Source of the DNA: Fibrobacter sp. UWB16
GTDB taxonomy: Bacteria > Fibrobacterota > Fibrobacteria > Fibrobacterales > Fibrobacteraceae
DNA: 64,000 nt
NCBI RefSeq assembly: GCF_900215325.1
Contig: NZ_OCMS01000003.1
Coordinates: 248,001-312,000, forward strand
Direction of reading: 5' to 3'
The notes below the pieces were generated by a model, which had not been told where the DNA came from, made no database searches, and was given only the letters and a program-made list of their open reading frames with translations. Made by a program: the position numbers and the translations under genes. Positions 794 through 53,967 of the stretch are shown here, in pieces (within the stretch, counting starts at the first letter, position 1; each line of letters starts with the position of its first letter).

Positions 794-3487
794 ATGGCAA
801 AGTATAATCCGCAAGAAATCGAAACCAAGTGGCAAGCCTACTGGGAAGAACATCAGACGTTTAAGACTGGCGAAGACAAGTCCAAGCCGAAGTATTACTG
901 CTTGGATATGTTCCCGTACCCGAGTGGTGCTGGCCTCCATGTGGGCCATCCGGAAGGTTACACTGCAACGGATATCATTTGCCGCTACAAGCGTAGCCGC
1001 GGTTTCAATGTGCTCCACCCGATGGGTTGGGACGCTTTCGGTCTCCCTGCTGAACAGTACGCCATCCAGACTGGTACGCACCCGGCCATTACGACCAAGA
1101 AAAACTGCGACAATTTCCGCCGCCAGATCAAGCGCCTCGGTCTCTCTTACGACTGGAACAAGGAAGTCAACACTACCGATCCGAAGTATTACAAGTGGAC
1201 GCAGTGGATTTTCAAGCGCCTTTATGGCACCTGGTTCGATGAAGACCAGCAGAAGGGCCGCCCGATTGAAGAACTCCCGATCCCGGCCGATGTAGAAGCC
1301 AAGGGTGCAGCCGAAGTCCGCAAGTACAAGGATTCTAAGCGCCTCGCTTACTACGCCGACGCTCAGGTGTGGTGGTGCAAGCACTGCAAGATTGTCTGCG
1401 CTAACGAAGAAGTTTTGAACGACGGCTCTCACGAAAAGTGCGGCACCAAGGAAGTGGAACGCCGTAACCTCAAGCAGTGGCTCATGCGCATCCCGCTGTA
1501 TGGCGACCGCCTCTTGAAGGGCCTCGACAAGCTCGACTGGCCGCAGGGCGTGAAGGACATGCAGAAGAACTGGATTGGCAAGAGCTACGGTGCCGAAGTT
1601 GATTTTGCTATCGCCGATGCTGAAGGCAAGCCGACCGAAAAGAAGCTCCGCGTCTACACGACCCGTTGCGATACGCTGTTTGGTGCGACCTACATGGTTG
1701 TTGCTCCGGAACACGCTATGGTGCCGGAACTCACGACTGCCGAACAGAAGGCCGCCGTGGAAGAATACGTGCACGCCGCCGCTCTTAAGAGCGACCTCGA
1801 CCGCACCGAACTTGCCAAGGAAAAGACCGGTGTGTTCACTGGTTCTTACGCTGTGAACCCGCTCACTGGCACGAAGATTCCGGTGTGGGTTGCTGACTAC
1901 GTTTTGACGGGCTATGGCACCGGCGCTATCATGGCTGTGCCTGCTCACGATACTCGCGACTTTGACTTTGCAAAGAAGTTCAACCTCCCGGTTATCTGCA
2001 TTATGGAACCGGACGCTAGCTGCCCCGAAGATGTTCGCCCGAAGGTTCTCGCTGGCGAAGCTTGCTGGGCTGCCGATGGCACCTACATCAACAGCGAAAA
2101 TGCAACGCTCTGCCTCAACGGTCTCAACAAGAAGCAGGGTATCGCCAAGGTGATCGAATGGCTCGAAGCCAACAAGATCGGTAAGGCAACCGTGAACTAC
2201 AAGCTCCGCGACTGGCTCTTCAGCCGTCAGCGCTACTGGGGCGAACCGTTCCCGATTATCCACTGGGAAGATGGCGAAATCTCTACCGTCGATGATTCCG
2301 AACTGCCGGTGCTGTTGCCGGAACTCAAGGACTACAAGCCGGGTGACGGCGGTCAGTCTCCGCTCGCGAACGCCACCGAATGGCTCCAGGTCGTCGATAA
2401 GAACGGCCGCAAGGGTATCCGCGAAACGAACACCATGCCGCAGTGGGCTGGTTCTTGCTGGTATTACCTCCGCTACATCGACGCTTGCAACGGCGACGCA
2501 TTTGTGGCAAAGGAACTTGAAAAGTACTGGATGCCGGTCGACCTCTATGTGGGTGGTGCCGAACACGCCGTGCTTCACTTGCTCTACAGCCGTTTCTGGC
2601 ACAAGGTCTTGTTCGATCTCGGCCTCGTCTCTACCGACGAACCGTTCCAGAAGCTCTTCAACCAGGGCATGATTCTTGCCTTCGCATACGAAGATGCTGC
2701 TGGCTCCAAGGTCCCGACTGACGAAGTCGAAGAAAAGAACGGCAAGTACTTCAAGAAGGGTACGGACATCGAGCTCAAGCAGATTGTGGCTAAGATGAGT
2801 AAGTCCCTCAAGAACGTCGTGAACCCCGATGACGTTGTTCGCGACTACGGTGCCGATAGCCTTCGCTTGTACGAAATGTTCATGGGCCCGCTGGACGCTG
2901 TGAAGCCGTGGCAGACCAAGGGCATCGAAGGCATGAACCGCTTCCTCGGCCGCGCCTGGCGCTCCGTGGTGGGTGACGACGATGCTGCTCCGGTTTATGT
3001 TGACGAAACCGCTCCGGAAGCAATCGAAAAGGTGATGCACCAGACCGTTATCAAGGTCACAAGCGACATCGAAAACATGAGCTTCAACACCGCCATTAGC
3101 CAGTTGATGATCTTCAACAACGAAATGATGAAGATGGACAAGCGCTACCGCGAGCCGTGCGAAACCTTTGTGAAGTTGCTGCACCCGTTTGCCCCGCACA
3201 TCGCCGAAGAAATGTGGAGCATCCTCGGTCACAACGAATCGCTCACGAACGTCGCCTGGCCGGAAGCCGACCATTCCAAGGCCGTGGAAAACACCGTGGA
3301 AGTCGTGTTCCAGGTGAACGGCAAGGTCCGCGCCAAGGCATCTGTTGCCAAGGACTTGGACAAGGCCGAACTTGAGAAACTCGCTCTTGACAACGAACGC
3401 GTGAAGGAATTTACCAAGGGAATGACTGTCGTCAAGTCGATTGTTGTGCCGGGTAAGTTGGTCAATATCGTTGTCAAGCCGGCATAA
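794..3487 (+). CDS. leuS: Leucyl-tRNA synthetase
   Basis: This is a class I aminoacyl-tRNA synthetase that charges tRNA-Leu in the cytoplasm. The 897-residue length is normal for bacterial LeuRS. The HIGH-type motif reads HVGH at about residue 49, after FPYPSGAGL. The KMSKS motif is at about 667-671. The CP1 editing domain holds the [19 protein letters not shown] segment near residue 290. The C-terminal domain ends in [13 protein letters not shown]. That 3' end is present as three further copies downstream (3517-3555, 4711-4812, 10994-11026), so this gene end appears to be an insertion point for accessory DNA. The open frames on the opposite strand (up to 843 codons) are shadows of this gene. 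Confidence 0.98.
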
Positions 3488-3498
3488 TATTGAGCCTG

Positions 3499-3517
3499 CC
3501 CCGGACTTGTTCCGGGG
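3499..3517. repeat. GC-rich hairpin between leuS and its first 3'-end copy
   Basis: CCCCGGA and TCCGGGG form a 7-bp stem with a 5-base loop. There is no T-run. The same CCCCGGA...TCCGGGG core occurs in the terminator at 62503-62532, so it belongs to a dispersed hairpin family. Confidence 0.6.
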
Positions 3518-3555
3518 TGGTTCCGGGCAAGCTCGTGAACATCGTGGTTAAATAA
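3517..3555 (+). pseudogene. Duplicate of the leuS 3' end, copy B
   Basis: The 39 bases translate as [12 protein letters not shown] plus stop, matching the last residues of LeuRS, only 30 bp after the real leuS stop. A 33-base stretch (3522-3554) is identical to copy D at 10993-11025, and these two copies flank the accessory region. The nucleotide sequence differs from the genuine leuS end at many wobble positions, so this is not a recent tandem copy. Confidence 0.85.
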
Positions 3556-3562
3556 GACTAGT

Positions 3563-3610
3563 GTGTCATCCTGAGCGGAGGCGCGCCGCGCCGAAGTCGA
3601 AGGATCCTGT
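3563..3610. repeat. GTCATCCTGAGC-type intergenic repeat, copy 1
   Basis: The repeat begins TGTCATCCTGAGCGGAG, has a GGCGCGCCGCGCC core and ends GAAGTCGAAGGATCC. A near-identical copy lies at 6561-6608, and a shorter relative is translated in frame inside feoB at 17367-17399. It is a palindromic REP-like element. Confidence 0.8.
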
Positions 3611-3621
3611 GATTTATAAGA

Positions 3622-3652
3622 AGACCGTAGCTTAACTGCTGCGGTCTTTTTT
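3622..3652 (+). terminator. Terminator of the cassette junction (copy 1)
   Basis: AGACCGTAGC and GCTGCGGTCT form a 10-bp stem with one wobble, followed by six T. The same hairpin recurs at 6619-6650 and, degraded, at 9894-9927, so it travelled with the repeat at the cassette boundaries. Confidence 0.85.
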
Positions 3653-3657
3653 ATTTC

Positions 3658-3686
3658 TTGAACAAAATGTATTTTTTCACTATAAT
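3658..3686 (+). promoter_or_regulatory. Sigma70-type promoter for the DUF2971 gene
   Basis: TTGAAC (3658-3663) and TATAAT (3681-3686) are 17 bp apart. GGAAG follows at 3701 and ATG at 3712. The promoter overlaps a longer possible frame starting at 3658, which rules that start out. Confidence 0.7.
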
Positions 3687-3711
3687 AAATGTTTTATTAT
3701 GGAAGTTGATT

Positions 3712-4644
3712 ATGCTTAACGATATGAAAAAAATGTATTGCGAAGAATCGGATAAATTTCTCTATCATTATACGAAAATAGATGTTCTTCAACATATTTT
3801 TAACGATCCGAATGGAGTAAAAGTAAATTTACGGTTTACTGATTATCATTTTCTTAATGATGCCGATGAAGGAATTTGGTTCTATAATTTCTTAAAGAAT
3901 CATAAAAAAGATGTTGTAAATATTTTCGAAAAGGAAAATGAACGGGAATATTGCGAATTTGCTATTGACAATTTTTTGGGGTATGAGAGTTATTTCTATC
4001 GCCTTAATGAACATTATGGTAAACATTATTCATTTTCATTGTCTGAGATGAAGGATTCTATGCAGTTTTGGCGACAGGATTATGCGAACGAAAATGGTGT
4101 CGCCCTTCGTTTTAATACAGAGTTGTATAAAGATAAGAACAATGATCTTCCATATCCTGTTCCTGAACTAGAATGTGTTCATTATCTTGGAAATGATACC
4201 ATGAAACAAATCTTTTCAGAATTTATAAAAATAGTTACAGATGAAGCTGATTTGATAAAATATAAAGAAGAAATTGATAAAGACGGCGAACCTATTGTTG
4301 ATATGCAAGGGGCTTCTGTCCTAAATAGGGCTCCGTTTTGGGTGATAAAAAATAGCGTATGGAAATCGGAACGGGAATGGCGTTTGACGAAGTCTGTGGG
4401 GGCTCTAAATCGATCTGTTTATAATCAAGAACATGAAAAAAGTGATTTTGAACAAAAGTTTGAAGTGGACGAAAAATGTATTCCGCGATACAGGATGGAC
4501 ATTCGAAATCCATTTGATGAAATTATATTAGGACCATCTTTTTCTGATTATTATATTGATTCTGTGAAGGTTTGGCTTGAATTACATAATTATAAGGATG
4601 TTGATATTTCTAAGAGCTTGGGACATGAGCGTCGGAAAATTTGA
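3712..4644 (+). CDS. DUF2971 family protein
   Basis: The product has about 310 residues and the hallmarks of DUF2971: an N-terminal LYHYTK motif, LRFTDYHFLNDADEG near residue 45, and a C-terminal NSVWKSEREWRLT motif. The biochemical function of this family is not established; members are frequent in accessory and defence-rich DNA. The ATG at 3712 is chosen because GGAAG lies 6 bases upstream and a promoter ends just before it. The gene is AT-rich compared with leuS and lies between leuS 3'-end copies B and C, consistent with acquisition. Confidence 0.8.
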   Translation: MLNDMKKMYCEESDKFLYHYTKIDVLQHIFNDPNGVKVNLRFTDYHFLNDADEGIWFYNFLKNHKKDVVNIFEKENEREYCEFAIDNFLGYESYFYRLNEHYGKHYSFSLSEMKDSMQFWRQDYANENGVALRFNTELYKDKNNDLPYPVPELECVHYLGNDTMKQIFSEFIKIVTDEADLIKYKEEIDKDGEPIVDMQGASVLNRAPFWVIKNSVWKSEREWRLTKSVGALNRSVYNQEHEKSDFEQKFEVDEKCIPRYRMDIRNPFDEIILGPSFSDYYIDSVKVWLELHNYKDVDISKSLGHERRKI

Positions 4645-4710
4645 TTATGTGTTGAATAAGCTCTCTTTCTTAATGTACTGCTTTTTTGTGATGTGACTTA
4701 TCGCTTTTAG

Positions 4711-4812
4711 GTTGTGAAAAATTCCGTTGAAGTCGTGTCCCTAGAGAACGGCGAAATTGTTGTGTGGTCCATCGTGGTCCCGGTCAAACTTGTGAATATT
4801 GTGGCGAAGTAA
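4711..4812 (+). pseudogene. Decayed leuS 3' end, copy C, with an internal deletion
   Basis: The frame reads VVKNSVEVVSLENGEIVVW followed by SIVVPVKLVNIVAK and a stop. The first part matches the leuS segment around [15 protein letters not shown] (3289-3330) and the second matches the last residues of LeuRS; roughly 30 codons between them are missing. There is no start codon or promoter, so it is a relic. The rest of the gene-free stretch 4645-4976 shows no other feature except AT-rich DNA before the next gene. Confidence 0.8.
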
Positions 4813-4976
4813 GTTGTTGGGAAAGGGACGCTTAGAAATTAGATGCTTGTGTACGGACTAGGAATTCCGAACAAAAAAATGGTGTATTTTAATGAATGGT
4901 TGAATTTAATTCAATTGAAAGATGTATATTAGCGTAAATTCATAATAGAATTGGTTTATAAAATATTGGAGAAATG

Positions 4977-5549
4977 ATGAATTCTTTAAATGAGATCGCG
5001 ATCTGTTTGGAAAATATAAGCTTTTTTGAATGGATTGTTTCTTTTATGACAAGGGGTATTATGCTTGGTCTCTTTTTAGTGATTCCTGTACTTATTGTAT
5101 TGGTTCAAATGATTCGTTTTTTGATATCTGATTCCGCTGTGAAAGATGAAAACAAGAATTTGCCAAAAGGAAAAACTATAAATATCAAAAATATGGGGAA
5201 AGCAGACTTGTCGAATAAAGACTTCTCCAATTTGATGTGCAATTCGGCAAGTGTTGTTTTGGATGAGAGAAACCGTCGAACGGAACTAATGAAGTCGTAT
5301 GTAATTGTTCCTTTGGAAATGTACTTCTATGTTCTTTTTATGTTAGGTGCAATTTATGTTATGGGAAAGTTTTTTGAAGCTTATCAAGATAATCCCATAT
5401 TAGGTGTGAAAAAATTAGTGGACTGCCTTCATAAGGATTGGATTGCTGCAGTTTTTCTTTTTGGACTATTTATGCATAGAGTTGTCATAAAGAAGATTGA
5501 TGATATTATAGAAATTCAAGGTATTAAATTTAAAAATAAAAAAAAGTGA
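4977..5549 (+). CDS. Small membrane protein, three predicted TM segments
   Basis: The family was not recognised. The product has about 190 residues with hydrophobic segments at roughly 17-48, 108-130 and 150-168. The soluble loop between the first two contains a short run of the form ADLSNKDFSNL. The C-terminus is Lys-rich and cytoplasmic-looking. ATG 4977 is preferred to 4974 because GGAG ends 5 bases before it. It is the first gene of a probable three-gene operon (4977-6545) inside the leuS accessory region. Confidence 0.55.
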   Translation: MNSLNEIAICLENISFFEWIVSFMTRGIMLGLFLVIPVLIVLVQMIRFLISDSAVKDENKNLPKGKTINIKNMGKADLSNKDFSNLMCNSASVVLDERNRRTELMKSYVIVPLEMYFYVLFMLGAIYVMGKFFEAYQDNPILGVKKLVDCLHKDWIAAVFLFGLFMHRVVIKKIDDIIEIQGIKFKNKKK

Positions 5550-5556
5550 GGCTTGA

Positions 5557-5862
5557 ATGAATGGAACTGTAGCTGCAAATACCGTACTAATTATAAGAAA
5601 TTTTTGGGGTAATGGTACTATTGTAGAAGTTAATCTCAATGCGCCAAACTTGCGTGCTTTTTGGATTAACAATCATGATGAAGCTGACGATGAAATTTCA
5701 ACAGATTGTGAAATTAATCAAGGCGAATCCATTCATGTGATTGCTAATAATCGTCGAAATGTTATATTGTATAACAATAGTGCAGAAGCGCATGATTATG
5801 ATATTTCTTTTTATGTTGCTGGGTTGCCATTGGGGGCAATGTCTGCAACATCTGGTTTTTAA
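5557..5862 (+). CDS. Hypothetical 101-residue beta-rich protein
   Basis: The family was not recognised. It begins 7 bp after the previous stop, behind a GAGG site, and ends 2 bp before the next gene, so it is translated in the same operon. The sequence alternates polar and aliphatic residues (VLIIRNFWGNGTIVEVNL, ESIHVIANNRRNVILYNN) as in a small beta-sandwich. There is no signal peptide or TM segment. The Gly/Ser-rich end (LPLGAMSATSGF) is disordered-looking. Confidence 0.5.
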   Translation: MNGTVAANTVLIIRNFWGNGTIVEVNLNAPNLRAFWINNHDEADDEISTDCEINQGESIHVIANNRRNVILYNNSAEAHDYDISFYVAGLPLGAMSATSGF

Positions 5863-5864
5863 AA

Positions 5865-6545
5865 ATGGATAAAGCTAAACTCATAAAGACAATAAATCAA
5901 AAGGGCTTTCGGAATAGCCTTATTTCTATCTATTATAATATTGGCAGAGCTTTGCCGTTTCGTGCACAGCGATTTCCTGATGGACGCGTGTCCGATTGGT
6001 ATCGGTCGCAGTTTGTAGAAGTTCACGATGTAAAACCTGGTGGTAAGGGCGGAAAATATGGACATGCTTATGGTTTTTATTTCAGAAATGGAGAACGTGC
6101 GGACGCAGTGGAAAATAATCCCGAGCAAAGCTGGTGCAAAATGAGTGATGCTGAGCCGAAAGGAATCCCGTGTGCGGCCTGTGGATCATGGGTGCTTTTG
6201 GATATTTTGGGGAAGGCTACGGCAGAGCCGGCAAAAATTTATGGTGTAAAAGATGTGTTGGATGTTGGCAAGCATAAGGGAGAAACCTTATCTGAGGTTA
6301 TTTGCTATGATTGGGGATGGGTAAAATGGGCTAAAGCAAATGCGGAACACATCTTTTTTGATGAGGATGAAGTGATTGAAGAAAGGAATAAGAGTATCAA
6401 ACATCTTCATTTAGATGATGTATTAACTTATGGAAAATATAAAGGGCAAAGTATTAGAAATATTGCTCATATCGATATTGATTATCTTAGGTGGCTGGCT
6501 ATGAATGACGAGAATTTTATCTTTGATTTTAAGGAATTGTTATAA
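5865..6545 (+). CDS. Protein with two ExoX C-terminal-like motifs
   Basis: The product has 226 residues. The N-terminal half has basic and aromatic residues and a CAACG motif near residue 104. The C-terminal half carries two tandem motifs: DVGKHKGETLSEVICYDWGW (about 126-145) and TYGKYKGQSIRNIAHIDIDY (about 186-205), the second followed by LRWL. This GK(H/Y)KG...YLRWL pattern is found at the C-terminus of exodeoxyribonuclease X-like proteins and related nucleic-acid proteins. No exonuclease DEDD motif is visible, so a nuclease call is not justified; nucleic-acid binding is an inference. It is the last gene of the 4977-6545 operon. Confidence 0.55.
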   Translation: MDKAKLIKTINQKGFRNSLISIYYNIGRALPFRAQRFPDGRVSDWYRSQFVEVHDVKPGGKGGKYGHAYGFYFRNGERADAVENNPEQSWCKMSDAEPKGIPCAACGSWVLLDILGKATAEPAKIYGVKDVLDVGKHKGETLSEVICYDWGWVKWAKANAEHIFFDEDEVIEERNKSIKHLHLDDVLTYGKYKGQSIRNIAHIDIDYLRWLAMNDENFIFDFKELL

Positions 6546-6560
6546 TATCTTTCAAAGAGT

Positions 6561-6608
6561 GTGTCATCCTGAGCGAAGGCGCGCCGCGCCGAAGTCGAAG
6601 GATCCAGT
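6561..6608. repeat. GTCATCCTGAGC-type intergenic repeat, copy 2
   Basis: Near-identical to 3563-3610, including the GGCGCGCCGCGCC core, and followed by the same terminator. The pair marks the edge of one cassette in the leuS accessory region. Confidence 0.8.
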
Positions 6609-6618
6609 GATTTACAAA

Positions 6619-6650
6619 AGACCGTAGCTTAATCGCTGCGGTCTTTTTTA
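6619..6650 (+). terminator. Terminator of the cassette junction (copy 2)
   Basis: AGACCGTAGC-TTAATC-GCTGCGGTCT followed by six T; the same hairpin as at 3622-3652. Confidence 0.85.
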
Positions 6651-6824
6651 TGGAGAGAAATGCGTTTCCTTAGCTTGGTTTGCGTCTAACCCTTATGAAT
6701 GCCATTTTTTGCGAAAAAATGTACTTTTCGTAATCTTTTTTGAACATTTCGCTTGTTTTGTGTTATTTTAAAGGGTGATTTTTTTGCTCGTGCCTTCTAA
6801 GTGAAGTAAAAGATGGAGAAAACG

Positions 6825-8327
6825 ATGAATTTCGATGAAAAATTGGCTAATTCTGCGGCGAATAGAGCTTTGTATGATCGTGTTTCTCGTTATGGGAGTG
6901 CCGCTGCACTCGATTTAGCGGCATACGATGGCAAAGGAGGATATGTCGAGCAATGCAAGCGTAGTCTAAAGAGTATCTCTGAGAGTAAGTTTGAAAAAAA
7001 TGTGGACGAAACGCTTCGCGAGAAAATTATAAAACAGCAAGCAGGTTTTTCGGCAGAAGTTATCGAAACGACAAAGATCAACAAACAGCGGATTATCAAC
7101 GGCGAGAAGGTCCGCAATTTTCGCATGGATGATCTTGGCAAAACTAATGACCAGTTGGTTGATACCGTTGATGCGGTGCAAATGTCCGATGGCTCATGGA
7201 AAGAAGTCGCAGGTACCGGCGTCCAGATGAAATTTATTGGTAAAAACGGCGGTGAAACATTTGATAAACTATGTAGTGCAAAGCATGAAAAGTATTACGC
7301 GAGTGGAACTCCTGTCAAAATTCCCAAAGACTTTTACGCAGAATTTAAAGAAAGGGCAGATTCGAAAATCAATGGCTTGAAACAAGAAATTAAGACGCTG
7401 AACGCGCAAAAGGCAAGTCCGGATTTAATCGCCTTGAAAAAAGCCCAGCTTAAAAAATACGAGACCATCCGCCACAACACTTATGCTAGCGAAACTACAA
7501 ACGAAGATGCCCTATTAGCCCGGACTAATCCAAAACGATATACTGCAAAATCCATGCTCGGGACTGCTCATGAGGCGGGTAAGGGAGCCGCGATGTCTGG
7601 TGTACTTATCGGCGGCGGCATGGCTATCGTCGGCAATCTGGATGCTGTGCTCAAAGGTAAACCCATTGACGAAGCTCTCAAAGAAGTTGCCGCCAAGTCC
7701 GCAACATCGGCTGTTCGCTCATACGCTGTAGCAAGCGGGGCAACGCTTATCGAAGGCGGTGTTCAGCATTACAAAAGTGAACTTCCCAAGCTGTTAAAAA
7801 ATGCCAAGGCCCCCACAGAAATAGCAGGTTTCGTAGTCGATGCCGCTTCGGCTTTTTATAACTACTACAACGGAAGTATCTCCGGCGTGGATTGTATGAA
7901 GCAACTTGCTACTAGTGCTACGCTTGCTTTAGCAAACTTGACTCCCGTTGGTCAAGCTGTATTTATTGCGCGAACCGTCTATACATTGTCAACTATCAGC
8001 GTTACAGTCATCAAAGACGCGTTAAAGGCTCCCAAAATCGCAAGAGAACGCCGTATTCAAATCGAGCTAGAATGTCGAGAGCAAATCCAAGCAATGAAGG
8101 CGTTCCGAGAAGAATTTGAACATAACACGCTAGCGTGGGTTGACGAAAAAACAAATGTTTTCAAGACGGCTCTCGATGCTATGGACAATGCACTGCAAGT
8201 GAATGATGTCGATGCATTTATTTGCGGAGCGAACCAAATCACCCATGCAATGGGAGGCCAAACGCAATTCAGCAACTGTAAAGAATTTAACCGTTTGATG
8301 GAATCAGACGAACCCTTTATTCTCTAA
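6825..8327 (+). CDS. Large hypothetical protein with a glycine/alanine-rich membrane-like core
   Basis: The product has about 500 residues and no recognised enzyme motif. Residues about 170-230 form a charged helical, coiled-coil-like region (INGLKQEIKTLN...LKKAQLKKYETI). It is followed by an AHEAGKGAAMSGVLIGGGMAIVG segment and further Ala/Gly-rich helices to about residue 400, resembling membrane-inserting glycine-zipper helices. The C-terminal 100 residues are again helical and polar. ATG 6825 is chosen because GGAG (6815-6818) lies 6 bases before it; ATG 6813 has no good site. It is the first gene of an operon with the next two genes, a possible membrane-acting system. Confidence 0.55.
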   Translation: MNFDEKLANSAANRALYDRVSRYGSAAALDLAAYDGKGGYVEQCKRSLKSISESKFEKNVDETLREKIIKQQAGFSAEVIETTKINKQRIINGEKVRNFRMDDLGKTNDQLVDTVDAVQMSDGSWKEVAGTGVQMKFIGKNGGETFDKLCSAKHEKYYASGTPVKIPKDFYAEFKERADSKINGLKQEIKTLNAQKASPDLIALKKAQLKKYETIRHNTYASETTNEDALLARTNPKRYTAKSMLGTAHEAGKGAAMSGVLIGGGMAIVGNLDAVLKGKPIDEALKEVAAKSATSAVRSYAVASGATLIEGGVQHYKSELPKLLKNAKAPTEIAGFVVDAASAFYNYYNGSISGVDCMKQLATSATLALANLTPVGQAVFIARTVYTLSTISVTVIKDALKAPKIARERRIQIELECREQIQAMKAFREEFEHNTLAWVDEKTNVFKTALDAMDNALQVNDVDAFICGANQITHAMGGQTQFSNCKEFNRLMESDEPFIL

Positions 8328-8349
8328 CGAACTCAATAAGGAGTAAAAT

Positions 8350-9360
8350 ATGCCTATACCATTAATTGTTGGCGGCATCGTCGCAGGGCTTGTCGGAGTC
8401 AAAAAAGCTTACGATGCTCATGAAACGAGCAAATGTGCCGAAAGTATAGATAGCCGTGCTCATTACGAACGTGAATGCGCAAAAGAGGATGCAGAAAGAC
8501 GTCGCGTAGAATGTCAAAAGTCTTTGGAAAAGTTGGGATCCACTAAATTCGATATTTTGAATAACGGAATAGCTCAATTCGTCCGAGCCTTCAAAAAAGT
8601 CAAAAATATCGACGAACGCAATAGTGTAGGGCTTGACGAACTTTCCAAATTGCTTTCTAAAGAAGAACTTGTCGAAATGCAAACGATGGGATCTCTGGCA
8701 GAAAGTGTCGCTAATGGTGCCGTTGGTGGCGTTGCCACAGGCGCTCTTGTCGCGCTTGGCGCTTATGGGGTGACATCCACCTTTGGCGTCACTGCTACAA
8801 CAGGGGCTCTGATTAGTAACTTGTCTGGAGCTGCAGCTACCAAAGCGACTCTCGCGTCCCTTGGTGGTGGAGCTTTGTCTGTAGGTGGCCTTGGAGTTGT
8901 TGGCGGCAAGATGGTTCTTGGAAGCGTCGCTTTAGGGCCGGCTCTTGCCGTTATGGGTTTTGTCATGAACGCCAAGGCTGAAGAAAAATTGGAAAATGCG
9001 CGAGCCAACCGTGCAAAGTCCGAACAATATGTAGAACAGTGCAGAACCCTCTGTTCCACATACTTGTGCATCAAAATGAGAAGCGATACCATTTCGGGTA
9101 TTCTCAATAAATTGAGGAGTCGCCTGATGTCCGCTAATAGGACTATTGAACGCATTATTGCACGCTACGAAGATAGTACCGGTACAGCAGATTTCCGTAG
9201 TTTTAGTGACGACGAAAAAAAGTCGCTGGCCGCCGCGGCAGCTTTGGCAAAATCTGTCAAGAGTATTTTGGATACACCCGTCTTGACTCAGGATGGAAAA
9301 CTGACTCCTCAGTCTGAAATCATTGCCGAAGCTGATTACGACGATGATGACATGGACTAA
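8350..9360 (+). CDS. Glycine-zipper membrane protein, partner of the preceding gene
   Basis: The product has 336 residues and starts with a hydrophobic helix (PLIVGGIVAGLVGVKKAYDA). A charged helical region follows, then a Gly/Ala/Val-rich stretch at about 118-205 (GAVGGVATGALVALGAYG, GGGALSVGGLGVVGG) typical of tightly packed membrane helices. A Cys-containing helical region and an acidic tail (DYDDDDMD) end it. An AAGGAG site precedes ATG 8350. Its stop overlaps the next ATG (TAATG). Function unknown; its pairing with 6825-8327 suggests a two-component membrane complex or pore, which is inference. Confidence 0.55.
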   Translation: MPIPLIVGGIVAGLVGVKKAYDAHETSKCAESIDSRAHYERECAKEDAERRRVECQKSLEKLGSTKFDILNNGIAQFVRAFKKVKNIDERNSVGLDELSKLLSKEELVEMQTMGSLAESVANGAVGGVATGALVALGAYGVTSTFGVTATTGALISNLSGAAATKATLASLGGGALSVGGLGVVGGKMVLGSVALGPALAVMGFVMNAKAEEKLENARANRAKSEQYVEQCRTLCSTYLCIKMRSDTISGILNKLRSRLMSANRTIERIIARYEDSTGTADFRSFSDDEKKSLAAAAALAKSVKSILDTPVLTQDGKLTPQSEIIAEADYDDDDMD

Positions 9361-9626
9361 TGCCGTCAGAACACTTTAAATGCGATTGCTGTGGCCTATG
9401 CTGCCGTTCCCTGAAAAAAGTTCCCGCCCTAGCGGACTTTGACAGGGGCGACGGTGTTTGTGTTAATCTTGGCGACGACAATTTGTGCAAGGTGTACAAT
9501 AGTCGTCCCGAAATTTGCAATGTTGAATTAATGTACGAACGCTTCTTTTCGAGCTACTGCTCAAAGGAGGAGTTCTATAAGATTAATGAAGAACAATGCA
9601 AGAAAATAAAAGAAGATTTTTTCTGA
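9360..9626 (+). CDS. YkgJ-family cysteine-cluster protein
   Basis: The product has 88 residues and an N-terminal CDCCGLCCRSL cluster with further Cys at about 35, 43, 53, 68 and 80. This is the CxxCxxCC arrangement of the YkgJ/Fli-like family of putative zinc- or iron-chelating proteins. Translation is coupled to the previous gene through TAATG. Its position behind two membrane proteins suggests a metal-sensing, metal-loading or maturation role for that pair; this is inference. Confidence 0.75.
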   Translation: MPSEHFKCDCCGLCCRSLKKVPALADFDRGDGVCVNLGDDNLCKVYNSRPEICNVELMYERFFSSYCSKEEFYKINEEQCKKIKEDFF

Positions 9627-9833
9627 AAAGTCAGAAAGATGAATGGAATGTATTCGTTCTTTTTTTAATATACACTCTCCAACTGTCATAATCTGTCAAT
9701 CGGAACTGTTGCGGATTTTCTAGATTATTTAGCGCGAAAATAATGCGGAGTCTGGAACCGTCAAAAAACGAATGAGCTTTTTTTTGTTAGATTTCGGACT
9801 TGATTACTGTGTCTATCTTTTGAGAGATTGATA

Positions 9834-9887
9834 ATGGCAAAGTGGAATATCATGGACTTGTTCGCTGGCGCGGGAGGGGATCTATAG
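9834..9887 (+). pseudogene. Relic of a C5-cytosine DNA methyltransferase start
   Basis: ATG at 9834 opens MAKWNIMDLFAGAGGDL and then a stop. DLFAGAGG is motif I (SAM binding) of C5-cytosine DNA methyltransferases, found at the extreme N-terminus as here. Only 17 codons remain, joined directly to a cassette-junction terminator. It is a footprint of a lost restriction-modification or orphan methylase gene. The rest of the gene-free stretch 9627-10041 shows only AT-rich DNA and the following terminator. Confidence 0.75.
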
Positions 9888-9893
9888 AAATTC

Positions 9894-9927
9894 AGATCGT
9901 AGCTTAATCGCTGCGGTCTATTTTTTT
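9894..9927 (+). terminator. Degraded terminator of the cassette junction (copy 3)
   Basis: AGATCGTAGC-TTAATC-GCTGCGGTCT with a T-rich tail; same hairpin as at 3622 and 6619 with one changed base. The REP-like repeat that precedes the other two copies is absent here. Confidence 0.7.
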
Positions 9928-10041
9928 GAACAGGTCGATTAATCTTTACTTGTCCTGATGGTCAAGAATAAGCAAAATTGAAATTGGAGGGGGAATGTTG
10001 CAGCCGTACAAATTATATATTATGCGCACAAGGAGGTTTTA

Positions 10042-10948
10042 ATGCATAAACTTTTGTATTTACTTTGTTTGGGATGTGCTTGTCGCTTGTGGAGATGATT
10101 CCAGTTCGTCACCGATTGTGCCGGAATCTTCCAGTTCTGAAATAATTGAGTCTTCGTCTGAGCAGAGCAGCTCTTCTATTCGGAGTTCTTCGGCAACATC
10201 TTCTTCTGTCGAAAGTTCTAGTTCAGCCCCTTATGTCGAGAAACACTTAGCGTGGGATTACCTGAATCCGGCGCTTTCCTACGGTGAGTTTACCGACGAG
10301 CGCGATGGGCACGTGTACAAGTACGTTGAGCTCGATGGCTACATCCGGTTCATGGCCGAAAACCTGAACTATGCGGATTCTGTTGCCAATCCGAATTTGT
10401 TGGGAAGTTCCTGGTGCCCTCTCAACAATCTGGATTCCTGTTCCAAGTATGGACGCTTCTATACTTGGGCGGCAGCCATGAATGTGGATCCCAAATACAA
10501 CTATGAAGAATTTACTGGCAAAAAAGGGATGGCCATGAACGTAGAGTATCAGGGGCTTTGTCCTGATGGATGGTTCATGTATGCCGATAAATGGATTTGG
10601 AGTGAATATGTTTGGCGGCTTCAGCCTGTTGAATACTGTGCTCAGAAAGGCTGGAGGTATGAAGGCTGCACGAACGAGTTGGGCTTTACGGCCTTGCCTG
10701 GCGGCTATTATGAAGATGGCGAGTTTAAGGAAGTTGGCGAAAATTTCTACTACTGGTCTGTACAGGGCGGAGGCAAGGACACGGGAGGACGTGGCTCCCT
10801 ATATTCAAAGTCAGGTGATTACGGCATTGATTTCGGCAGGAACATCAATTTTATGGTGGAGAAGACCGTAGGCGCGGCTGTTCGCTGCTACCAGACGATT
10901 CCCCAGGATCCGTGCGCCGAGCCGGATAATCCCTATTGCGAGGAATAG
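10042..10948 (+). pseudogene. FISUMP-domain lipoprotein, frameshifted in the signal peptide
   Basis: A strong site (AAGGAGG) precedes ATG 10042, which opens MHKLLYLLCLG, a lipoprotein signal start. It then runs out of frame with the rest, which is open from 10076 (LVACGDD lipobox) to 10948. One base must be removed near 10065-10075 to join them. The mature part has a Ser-rich linker (residues 5-40) and a Fibrobacter major paralogous domain with the landmarks FMAENLNYAD, GRFYTWAAAMN, CPDGWFM, LPGGYY and GAAVRCY. The domain itself is intact, so the break is recent, a phase switch or a sequencing error. Reinitiation at GTG 10076 would give a protein without an export signal. Confidence 0.75.
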
Positions 10949-10993
10949 TAGTTCCGCTGCAGAAAGCTCGATCTCCGTCGTTGAGCCCTAAAT

Positions 10994-11026
10994 CCGGGCA
11001 AGCTCGTGAACATCGTGGTTAAATAG
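10994..11026 (+). pseudogene. Duplicate of the leuS 3' end, copy D
   Basis: This stretch translates as [10 protein letters not shown] plus stop. Bases 10993-11025 are identical to 3522-3554. It forms the distal boundary of the leuS accessory region and is followed by a GTCATGCCCGCC-type repeat (11033-11062). Confidence 0.85.
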
Positions 11027-11062: not shown

Positions 11063-11075
11063 TTAAATATTAGAA

Positions 11076-11110
11076 AAAGCTCTGAAGTCCACCTTCAGGG
11101 CTTTCTTTTT
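11076..11110 (+). terminator. Rho-independent terminator at the end of the leuS accessory region
   Basis: AAAGCTCTGAAG and CTTCAGGGCTTT pair with one T-G wobble around a 5-base loop, followed by CTTTTT. Confidence 0.75.
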
Positions 11111-11166
11111 GCTGTTTTTATATATTTTGTGAAACGGAAAATGATTGTCATCTAATGGAACTTTTT

Positions 11167-12342
11167 ATGGAATGGAACGCCTCGGTCAAGAAACAAATTG
11201 AATCCCGCTTGATGGAAAAGGAAAGATCGCTTGCTGAATATGCCTGCAAGTCTGCGGCTGCGGTTCGCTATCACGAAGCGCAAGAAGATATCCGTCCGAA
11301 CTTTTCCCGCGATGCAGACAAGATTATCCATTCCTATTGCTATAGCCGATACATTGACAAGACTCAGGCGTTTTACCTTGTTGAAAATGACCACATCACG
11401 CACCGAGTGCTGCACGTGCAACTGGTCGCAAAAATTGCAAGGACCATTGGGCGCTTTTTGAATCTGAACGAAGACTTGATTGAGGCGATTTCGCTAGGTC
11501 ACGATGTGGGTCATACGCCTTTTGGACACGATGGCGAAAGGATTGTCTCGAAGTTTTTGCAAGAGCGCGGTGAAGGAATTTTTGAACACAACGTTCAAAG
11601 CTTTAGGCTGTTTCATGACCTTGAAGCGCACGGCAAAGGGCTGAACCTTACCGCACAAGTGCTCGACGGAATCATCTGCCACAACGGCGAAATCCTGAAA
11701 AATGAATACGGCTGCAACCGTAGCAAGACTCCAGAAAAACTGCTGGAAGAATACAGAAACAGCTTAAGCGGAACGCTGAAATCGAAAGAGATGGTCCCGA
11801 TGACATTGGAAGGATGTGTCATGCGAATCTCGGACGTGATTGCGTACGTTGGCCGCGACATCGAAGATGCCATCATCTTGAAACTAGTGAAGCGCGAAGA
11901 CATCCCCCAAGAAATTACGAAAGTTCTCGGTAGCAAAAATAGCGAAATCGTCAACACGCTTATTACAGACCTTGTCAACAATAGTCTAGACAAAGAAACT
12001 CTCGTCTTTTCGCCGGAAGTTTTTGATGCGCTTAATCAGCTGAAAAACTGGAACTACAAAAACATCTATTTGAATCCGAAAAAGTCAACCCAGGATGAAA
12101 AAATCAAGATGATGTTCCGGACTGTCTTGGAAGAATGCCTTGATGAACTCCAGTCTGGCGTGAAAAAGGCGACAGGAATCAATCACTGGTGTGAATCGCT
12201 AGGCGAAAAGTACAAAGAAACGACACCCCTCCCGCGCATTGTCGCCGATTACGTCTCTGGAATGACCGATGACTACCTGATGAACGCCTACAAGGAAATT
12301 GTGATGCCCAAGTCGTTCGGCGTGAGCTTTGGGGAAAAGTAA
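11167..12342 (+). CDS. dgt: Deoxyguanosinetriphosphate triphosphohydrolase (dGTPase-like HD protein)
   Basis: The enzyme hydrolyses dGTP, or other dNTPs, to the nucleoside and triphosphate. The HD-domain metal ligands are clear: H in THRVLHVQLVAKIARTIGR, then the ISLGHDVGHTPFGHDGE signature near residue 110, and a downstream D in RISDVIAYVGRDIEDA. At about 391 residues it belongs to the shorter dGTPase-like group. ATG 11167 has GGAAC upstream; ATG 11155 is the alternative, 4 residues longer. It stands alone downstream of the leuS accessory region and is closed by a terminator at 12358. Confidence 0.9.
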   Translation: MEWNASVKKQIESRLMEKERSLAEYACKSAAAVRYHEAQEDIRPNFSRDADKIIHSYCYSRYIDKTQAFYLVENDHITHRVLHVQLVAKIARTIGRFLNLNEDLIEAISLGHDVGHTPFGHDGERIVSKFLQERGEGIFEHNVQSFRLFHDLEAHGKGLNLTAQVLDGIICHNGEILKNEYGCNRSKTPEKLLEEYRNSLSGTLKSKEMVPMTLEGCVMRISDVIAYVGRDIEDAIILKLVKREDIPQEITKVLGSKNSEIVNTLITDLVNNSLDKETLVFSPEVFDALNQLKNWNYKNIYLNPKKSTQDEKIKMMFRTVLEECLDELQSGVKKATGINHWCESLGEKYKETTPLPRIVADYVSGMTDDYLMNAYKEIVMPKSFGVSFGEK

Positions 12343-52905: not shown

Positions 52906-53967
52906 ATGGGACTGCAGAACAAACCAAGACCAACGAAGCGGAAACTGGAGAAGGAAAAGGATCTTTCTTCCGAAGACGCGAAGGCGCTGAACGAGAAAAT
53001 CCGAAGTCTCCAGCTAGAAGTTGACATATTGAAGGAGACGCTGAACATAATAAAAAAAGACCCAGGCGTTGACTTGTCTGCCCTTCGCAACAGGGAAAAA
53101 ACACAGCTTGTCAACGCCTTACGCAACCGCTACAAATTAAGGGATATCCTACTTGCATTGGGAATGTCCCGAAGCGTCTATTACTACAACGTAAAACACC
53201 TGAATGACCGGAACAATAAGGACCTTCAGTTGCTAAAAGAACTTGTCCCAATATTCGACGAGTCCAACAAAACTTACGGCTACAGAAGAATCCACAGTGA
53301 ACTTTCAAAGACCGGAAAGAAAGTTTCCGAGAAGGTTGTCAGACGCGCAATGAAACTTGGCAACCTCATCGTCTACAAACCCAAGAAACTGAAATATAGT
53401 TCGTATAAAGGCGAGATCACACCCGCCGTTCCCAATATTCTCAATCGCAATTTTCACGCCGATGCACCCAATCAAAAATGGCTGACGGACATAACGGAAT
53501 TTCCTCTACACGACGGCAAAGTGTACCTATCACCGATTATCGACTGCTTCGACGGAGCGCCAGTATGTTGGACAATCGGAGAGTCACCTGATGCGACCCT
53601 TGTCGACGAGATGCTGGATAAGGCCGTTGCGACACTCCATGAGGGTGAAACCCCGATAATCCATACGGACAGAGGAAGTCATTACAGGTGGCCCGGATGG
53701 ATCGAGAGAATGAAAAAGTATGGCTTGACACGATCCATGTCAAGAAAGGGCTACACGCCCGACAACGCCGCGTGTGAAGGCTTTTTCGGTATACTCAAGA
53801 ACGAGTTTTTCTACAGCAGGAACTGGGGAAAAGTTGACAAGGAAGAGTTCAAAGTTGAGCTTGAAAAATATTTGGAATGGTTTTGCACGAAACGGATAAA
53901 GGTCAGACTCAATGGAATGAGTCCAATGGATTACCGGAAACTATATTTGGACAAACAACCTATCTAA
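52906..53967 (+). CDS. IS3-family transposase OrfB (DDE integrase core)
   Basis: The product has 353 residues. A helical N-terminus (leucine-zipper-like RSLQLEVDILKETLNIIKK) leads to an HTH_21 segment (YGYRRIHSELSKTGKKVSEKVVRRAMK) and an rve catalytic core: WLTDITEF (D1), IIHTDRGSHY (D2) and ACEGFFGILKNEF (E). All three catalytic residues are present, so the element may be active if OrfA and OrfB can be combined. Confidence 0.93.
   Translation: MGLQNKPRPTKRKLEKEKDLSSEDAKALNEKIRSLQLEVDILKETLNIIKKDPGVDLSALRNREKTQLVNALRNRYKLRDILLALGMSRSVYYYNVKHLNDRNNKDLQLLKELVPIFDESNKTYGYRRIHSELSKTGKKVSEKVVRRAMKLGNLIVYKPKKLKYSSYKGEITPAVPNILNRNFHADAPNQKWLTDITEFPLHDGKVYLSPIIDCFDGAPVCWTIGESPDATLVDEMLDKAVATLHEGETPIIHTDRGSHYRWPGWIERMKKYGLTRSMSRKGYTPDNAACEGFFGILKNEFFYSRNWGKVDKEEFKVELEKYLEWFCTKRIKVRLNGMSPMDYRKLYLDKQPI

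Follow-up and report, generated by a model that had tools for sequence, protein, structure and literature searches.

Islands at the 3' ends of leuS and other housekeeping genes in Fibrobacter, many with conserved folded borders

The window analysed here, a stretch of 64,000 nucleotides from the genome of Fibrobacter sp. UWB16, contains an intact leuS gene whose own end (3448-3487) is followed on the same strand by three more partial copies of that end, which we call B, C and D, the last of them shortly before dgt (Table 1). An earlier note on this DNA had placed leuS ends at these four positions, and all four were recovered. Copies B and D are identical over 33 nt, as had been claimed, and copy C is both diverged and internally deleted, which agrees with the view that the copies differ in age: its first piece (4709-4752) matches leuS 3279-3322 at 77%, and its second (4779-4811) matches the last leuS codons, at 73% to the B/D sequence. 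A degenerate tail pattern with three mismatches allowed found only these four sites and one poor site in the whole 3.55-Mb genome; the leuS-end copies are therefore not a dispersed repeat, and the scatter of tails over unrelated positions that the earlier note had raised as an objection does not occur. Among 270 other genes of at least 250 aa in the leuS loci, two have a downstream copy of their own 3' end, namely a broken leuS and pgi, and the latter is itself an island of the leuS type.

Table 1. Features of the leuS-dgt interval in the window
Feature	Position	Strand	Remarks
leuS, intact	794..3487	+	last ~25-30 codons of the recoded VVKPA-stop type (PA)
Short hairpin spacer TATTGAGCCTGCCCCGGACTTGTTCCGGG	3488..3516	+	directly 3' of the PA-type stop
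Copy B	3517..3555	+	what is left of a K-type leuS end: codons 884-895 plus stop
Repeat unit with terminator-like hairpin at its end (GTCATCCTGAGCG...AAGACCGTAGC..GCTGCGGTCTTTTTT)	3560..3654	+	repeat families D2, D3
DUF2971 protein, cargo	3709..4644	+	PF11185, 34.1 bits, cut-off 22
Copy C	4709..4812	+	internally deleted, older leuS end that separates two cargo blocks; shared with G075
Small putative membrane protein, cargo	4974..5549	+	no confident family
101-aa protein, cargo	5557..5862	+	no confident family
ExoX-like C-terminal domain protein (ExoX-like_C), cargo	5865..6545	+	
504-aa protein, cargo	6813..8327	+	upstream partner of the PDC-M09A-like gene
PDC-M09A-like candidate phage-defence protein, cargo	8350..9360	+	PDLC04407, 2e-24
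CxxCxxCC-type protein, cargo	9360..9626	+	PF03692, at cut-off
Scar with the opening codons of a C5 DNA methyltransferase-like gene (MAKWNIMDLFAGAGGDL, followed by a stop)	9834..9888	+	deletion junction
Fib_succ_major domain lipoprotein-like gene, cargo	10076..10948	+	PF09603
Copy D	about 10994..11026	+	displaced leuS end, final codons 886-895 plus stop
Conserved right flank including dgt (11155-12342)	11064..12342	+	

Searches of Pfam and PADLOC gave no match for the 504-aa protein. The gene for the ExoX-like protein has a relative, at 82% nucleotide identity, at the very right end of the island of genome G005 (described below), and the methyltransferase stump is presumably what Table 1 calls it, judging from what we know of the motif. 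The repeat unit beside copy B recurs at 6558-6651 and, in part, at 9893-9926; these units are intergenic and separate cargo blocks, and comparable ones lie behind gene ends in many Fibrobacter genomes. Outside the interval, at 52906-53967, the window has an IS3-type transposase-like gene, judged from its sequence only.

The genus has two kinds of leuS end, a K-type (...VVK-stop) and a recoded PA-type (...VVKPA-stop), and the difference between the two groups of genes is confined to the last ~100 nt. Behind a PA-type end there is often a short hairpin and then a K-type remnant that begins at codon 880, 884 or 890; the spacer TATTGAGCCTGCCCCGGACTTGTTCCGGG is found with identical sequence in about 10 other genomes, with remnants from these same codons. 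The order in the window, PA-type leuS, hairpin and copy B, is this arrangement, which is a smaller event than the islands described next. We rejected the PA-type end as a mark of the islands that carry the element RE (below), because it is restricted to the last ~25-30 codons and is found also where there is neither RE nor cargo.

We searched for LeuS in 80 Fibrobacter genomes and aligned about 60 stretches downstream of leuS. Besides an intact leuS, many genomes have partial copies of its 3' part only, kilobases downstream on the same contig. These distal fragments comprise codons 486-895 in G039 and G042 and 617-897 in G037, and they begin at several internal codons (about 482, 618, 627, 694, 787 and others), up to ~410 codons (~1.2 kb) from the stop. 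Aligning the leuS-dgt interval, as the earlier note had proposed, revealed over about 50 loci variable cargo, borders made of leuS ends and an empty site with one copy. In G008, the empty case, a single leuS end runs directly into the dgt flank; in the window genome, G000, the 7.5-kb island and then copy D, ~40 nt from the flank, precede the same sequence; and in G005 the site is filled with 18.6 kb of different cargo followed by leuS codons 787-895 and again the same flank. G004 and G042 provide a second empty/filled pair, in which the flank after the single leuS of the former is that after the distal fragment of the latter. The junction is kept while cargo varies, as for the 486-895 fragment, which occurs in four genomes with different cargo; G075 has 3301-9931 of the window in common at 95.8% and differs beyond that. 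Nor does leuS normally lie next to dgt, since the dgt of the window type is present in only 23 of the 80 genomes. Together, the empty, filled and alternatively filled sites support the original reading of insertion at the leuS 3' end with a replacement end, which needs two refinements: leuS is not special, as at least nine other housekeeping genes are used, and the scattered internal starts of the displaced ends do not resemble a single integrase attachment site.

Upstream of most distal leuS fragments there is a common sequence, GCGTTAGGGATAGTGACC...AATATAGCCCGACC...GGGAACGCC, which we call the right end (RE). It is about 120-230 nt long, lies between cargo and gene fragment, ends in GAACGCC and has a branched, covarying fold. 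We scored this structure, a terminal helix with inner helices, on 30 distinct copies: 94.2% of cells were paired, 15 pairs were changed on both sides, and there were 96 double-change cells, against 24.7 +/- 5.3 after shuffling (0/500) and at most 16 in slid controls. This covariation indicates that the RE structure is under selection, and hence more than passive homology. At the two RE sites compared with Rfam, the matches were at chance level and nothing approached a gathering score, so the element was not assigned to a known RNA family there. A covariance model found RE in 76 of 80 Fibrobacter genomes, including all 40 good ones, at 1-16 copies each, and in 14 genomes of seven other genera of the family Fibrobacteraceae; in the rest of the phylum it gave weak matches only. 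We rejected the idea that RE is a plain terminator of the cargo, since the neighbouring cargo gene is in line with it in 34 cases and opposite in 23, and RE always points the same way with respect to the target gene.

At a minority of sites the functional gene is followed by a second element, the left end (LE; TTCCGCTACCCCYTCTR), a stem-loop of about 65 nt that ends in YAACGCC and has compensating changes in its stem. The terminal AACGCC is common to LE and RE, and RE starts with the complementary GCGTT. In the eight listed cases, LE and RE lie 0.9 to 18 kb apart. The left boundary is incompletely defined, since LE could be recognised beside only a minority of the RE sites.

At 13 of the 32 RE sites away from leuS, the DNA that follows duplicates sequence found 2-16 kb upstream, which is a gene in nearly all cases that could be named; at random points of these loci the count is 5 of 239 (odds ratio 32, p=4e-10). 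The other 19 sites, where the unit may extend further or be built differently, have no duplicated fragment within about 16 kb upstream. We took the targets besides leuS, on the basis of their translations and of background on such proteins, to be ileS, valS, thrS, carB, PFOR/nifJ, sdhB/frdB, V-ATPase K and I, and pgi. Several of them show a single junction reused from genome to genome; at PFOR, six loci from five genomes agree in their junction and in having a small hairpin insert of one kind. Units also occur in tandem, as in locus L127, where three RE-thrS units each have their own gene fragment. A complete unit thus consists of functional gene, LE, cargo, RE, dead 3' fragment of the same gene and host flank. 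In all, gene-end islands sit on at least 10 housekeeping genes including leuS, many with conserved folded borders. Our literature search, which covered subscription journals and preprints thinly, returned no paper on Fibrobacter gene-end islands and does not establish priority. We also noted hairpin inserts of ~65-100 nt ('AAGGCGAGAGC..CATGACCGAGCC' and 'TGTGAGCC..GGCGAGAG..CGGTCATCATAG') in L127, L112, L154, L155, L156, L160, L162 and other loci; they lie inside dead gene fragments, often near the start, and are absent from the functional copies.

To characterise the cargo we tallied 103 proteins from 20 islands and listed the 25 most frequent families. Those listed include many antiphage families (type III and type II methyltransferases, ResIII, AbiEii, Wadjet JetA, AriA, PbeA, MkoA and PDC-S01), and island cargo is rich in antiphage systems. 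Fibrobacter is reported to be among the rumen bacteria with the most defence systems per genome (PMC11834463). No transfer-gene or transposase family stood out among the listed families. The earlier note had remarked on an island without an integrase; there is none in the window island, and we found no tyrosine-recombinase relative among all ORFs of 120 loci (2.05 Mb). For serine recombinases the analysis covered the Pfam tally, and no recombinase of any kind came to light in the islands. Tyrosine recombinases, with subfamilies not separated, are present in 27 of 27 genomes tested, with only two genes each in G042, G040 and G059, which are most simply XerC and XerD. Three other candidate partners of RE were tried and rejected: TnpB as a constant partner, present in 1 of 44 genomes; a REP/RAYT or IS200-type (HUH Y1) element, with Y1 transposase in 18 of 44 and none in G000; and a retron or group II intron, with reverse transcriptase in 13 of 44 and again none in G000. 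The TnpB-type matches, 13 in all, are in G036 (contigs C5, C15, C31 and C57), and 43 other good Fibrobacter genomes have none.

We looked for LE and RE in the window and found neither; the window genome has four RE elsewhere, one of them with restriction-modification cargo (L096). Because G005 holds a complete unit at the same site, we read the window island as a decayed member of the family that has lost LE and RE and in which copies B, C and D remain. Its membership is suggested by the identity of the locus with that of G005 and by the leuS remnants.

The best explanation of these observations is that the islands on housekeeping-gene 3' ends in Fibrobacteraceae were probably inserted by homologous recombination through the duplicated gene end, a pathway that we infer. 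The gene end on the incoming DNA would serve as a homology arm, and RecA-type recombination between this arm and the recipient's single housekeeping gene would insert arm, cargo and RE. The gene would stay functional with the replacement end, and the displaced end would be pushed to the far side of the island. With one conserved gene as both arms, the island would be independent of the variable downstream neighbourhood. The leuS arms are 89-97% identical to the functional gene of their own genome and 90-98% to the best others, with the exception of G037 (99.4% to its own), and the nifJ arms are 96-99% identical to their own and 95-97% to others. In most cases this divergence is about that of orthologues of other species, and therefore the two copies usually come from different genomes rather than from local duplication. 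The arms of the PFOR islands are no closer to one another than to the functional genes, yet the RE junction is kept. Insertions that each cross over inside the arm would give this pattern, which argues for homologous recombination. We gave up assigning donor species to the leuS arms by nearest neighbour, which was too noisy.

Homologous recombination leaves the conserved RE fold unexplained, as pure recombination does not need a structure. RE and LE may have a role in cutting, joining or transfer. A more ambitious reading, to which we give slightly less than even odds of being right, is that LE and RE are the termini of an undescribed mobile element of Fibrobacteraceae: defence cassettes free of any recombinase that would dock on many housekeeping genes by way of a gene-3'-end copy, with RE, as DNA or RNA, forming a folded site that excision, capture or joining of the cargo would require.

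The main rival is an integron-like system, in which a recombinase acting in trans joins cassettes of cargo plus RE at LE or RE via the AACGCC core, and the gene fragment is simply the old neighbour of the slot. The shared ends of LE and RE, (Y/G)AACGCC with the complementary GCGTT at the start of RE, are what such a system would provide; the stop codon of the cargo, where the last gene is in line, is mostly 6-50 nt from RE or inside it; and four genomes that agree at one site in RE and the right flank differ in their cargo. The likeness to integron cassettes, one folded site at the cargo end and exchange of cargo at a fixed slot, does not extend to the site itself. RE has GCGTT...AACGC boxes and a branched fold of several helices, as against RYYYAAC...GTTRRRY in one hairpin, and we rejected its identity with attC on box orientation. 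Moreover, G042, with its 8 RE, has just the two tyrosine recombinase genes noted above, a number that it shares with G040 and G059; no recombinase was found in the units themselves; and many units are followed by a target-gene fragment, each tandem unit carrying its own, as at thrS in L127. We therefore regard an integron-like origin as unlikely.

Less likely still are remnants of site-specific ICE, IME or CIME elements that targeted gene 3' ends and lost their integrase. CIMEs are integrase-less units at a gene 3' end, with replacement ends and tandem units, bounded by att sites, short direct repeats that occupy one fixed place in the target gene. The islands are likewise integrase-less, located at gene 3' ends, supplied with replacement ends and found in tandem; such replacement and accretion are the classical signature of these elements, which the PA-type end and short remnant at leuS also resemble. 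They differ in having no short att site at a fixed position. The leuS fragments begin at many internal positions as far as about 1.2 kb from the stop, unlike the attachment site of one site-specific integrase, and gene fragments are of many lengths. The islands differ further in their conserved folded RE, defence cargo and many target genes. In the 120 loci we found neither a tyrosine integrase nor a related integrase-bearing element, and no transfer-gene family is prominent among the listed cargo. A review (PMC5704250) deals with CIMEs and with the way integrative elements accumulate in tandem at the 3' ends of genes.

RNA-guided homing, in which RE would be a guide-RNA scaffold with the target gene as its 3' extension, and a nuclease would cut the empty gene so that repair copied in the island and a rescuing end, is very improbable. 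It would account for a structured RE directly 5' of target-gene sequence in fixed orientation, as in the TnpB reRNA. Against it, genomes with RE almost never have TnpB (1 of 44), and several functional copies match the start of the fragment exactly, so that they would themselves be cut. A local origin at leuS, by tandem duplication or slippage followed by insertions that separated the copies, would fit the short tails lying close together in the window and may hold for copy C alone, but for the island family it is already contradicted, and scarcely credible, given the duplicated ends at nine other genes with one common RE, the arms mostly not closest to the local gene, and the flanks common to empty and filled sites.

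Insertion by homologous recombination has a parallel in the core defence hotspots of Pseudomonas aeruginosa, where defence systems lie between core genes, often without mobility genes, and transfer by homologous recombination of the conserved flanks has been proposed (PMC10250203). The islands, like these hotspots, have variable defence cargo between conserved sequences usable as arms; unlike them, both arms are copies of a single gene, and the cargo has a conserved folded element at its border. Defence cargo and a preference for gene 3' ends are also features of Tn7-like and other transposons that carry defence (PMC8649781). The islands share both properties, but have no prominent transposase family among those listed, duplicate gene fragments and have different ends.

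These results offer a concrete route for the gain and exchange of defence in Fibrobacter without a recombinase inside the element. The new structured element RE, the defined junctions, the list of docking genes and the empty/filled pairs make the mechanism directly testable, and unknown defence systems could be retrieved simply as whatever stands between a docking gene and RE.

Two smaller observations concern the end elements. At L096 (16535-17135) and its relatives L147-L149, four genomes have the same small antisense gene to the right of RE, and the upstream sequence differs. An apparent feoB contains a short LE-like element in two loci (L055:17762 and L080:12436, in oriented coordinates), as if LE were also a miniature repeat.
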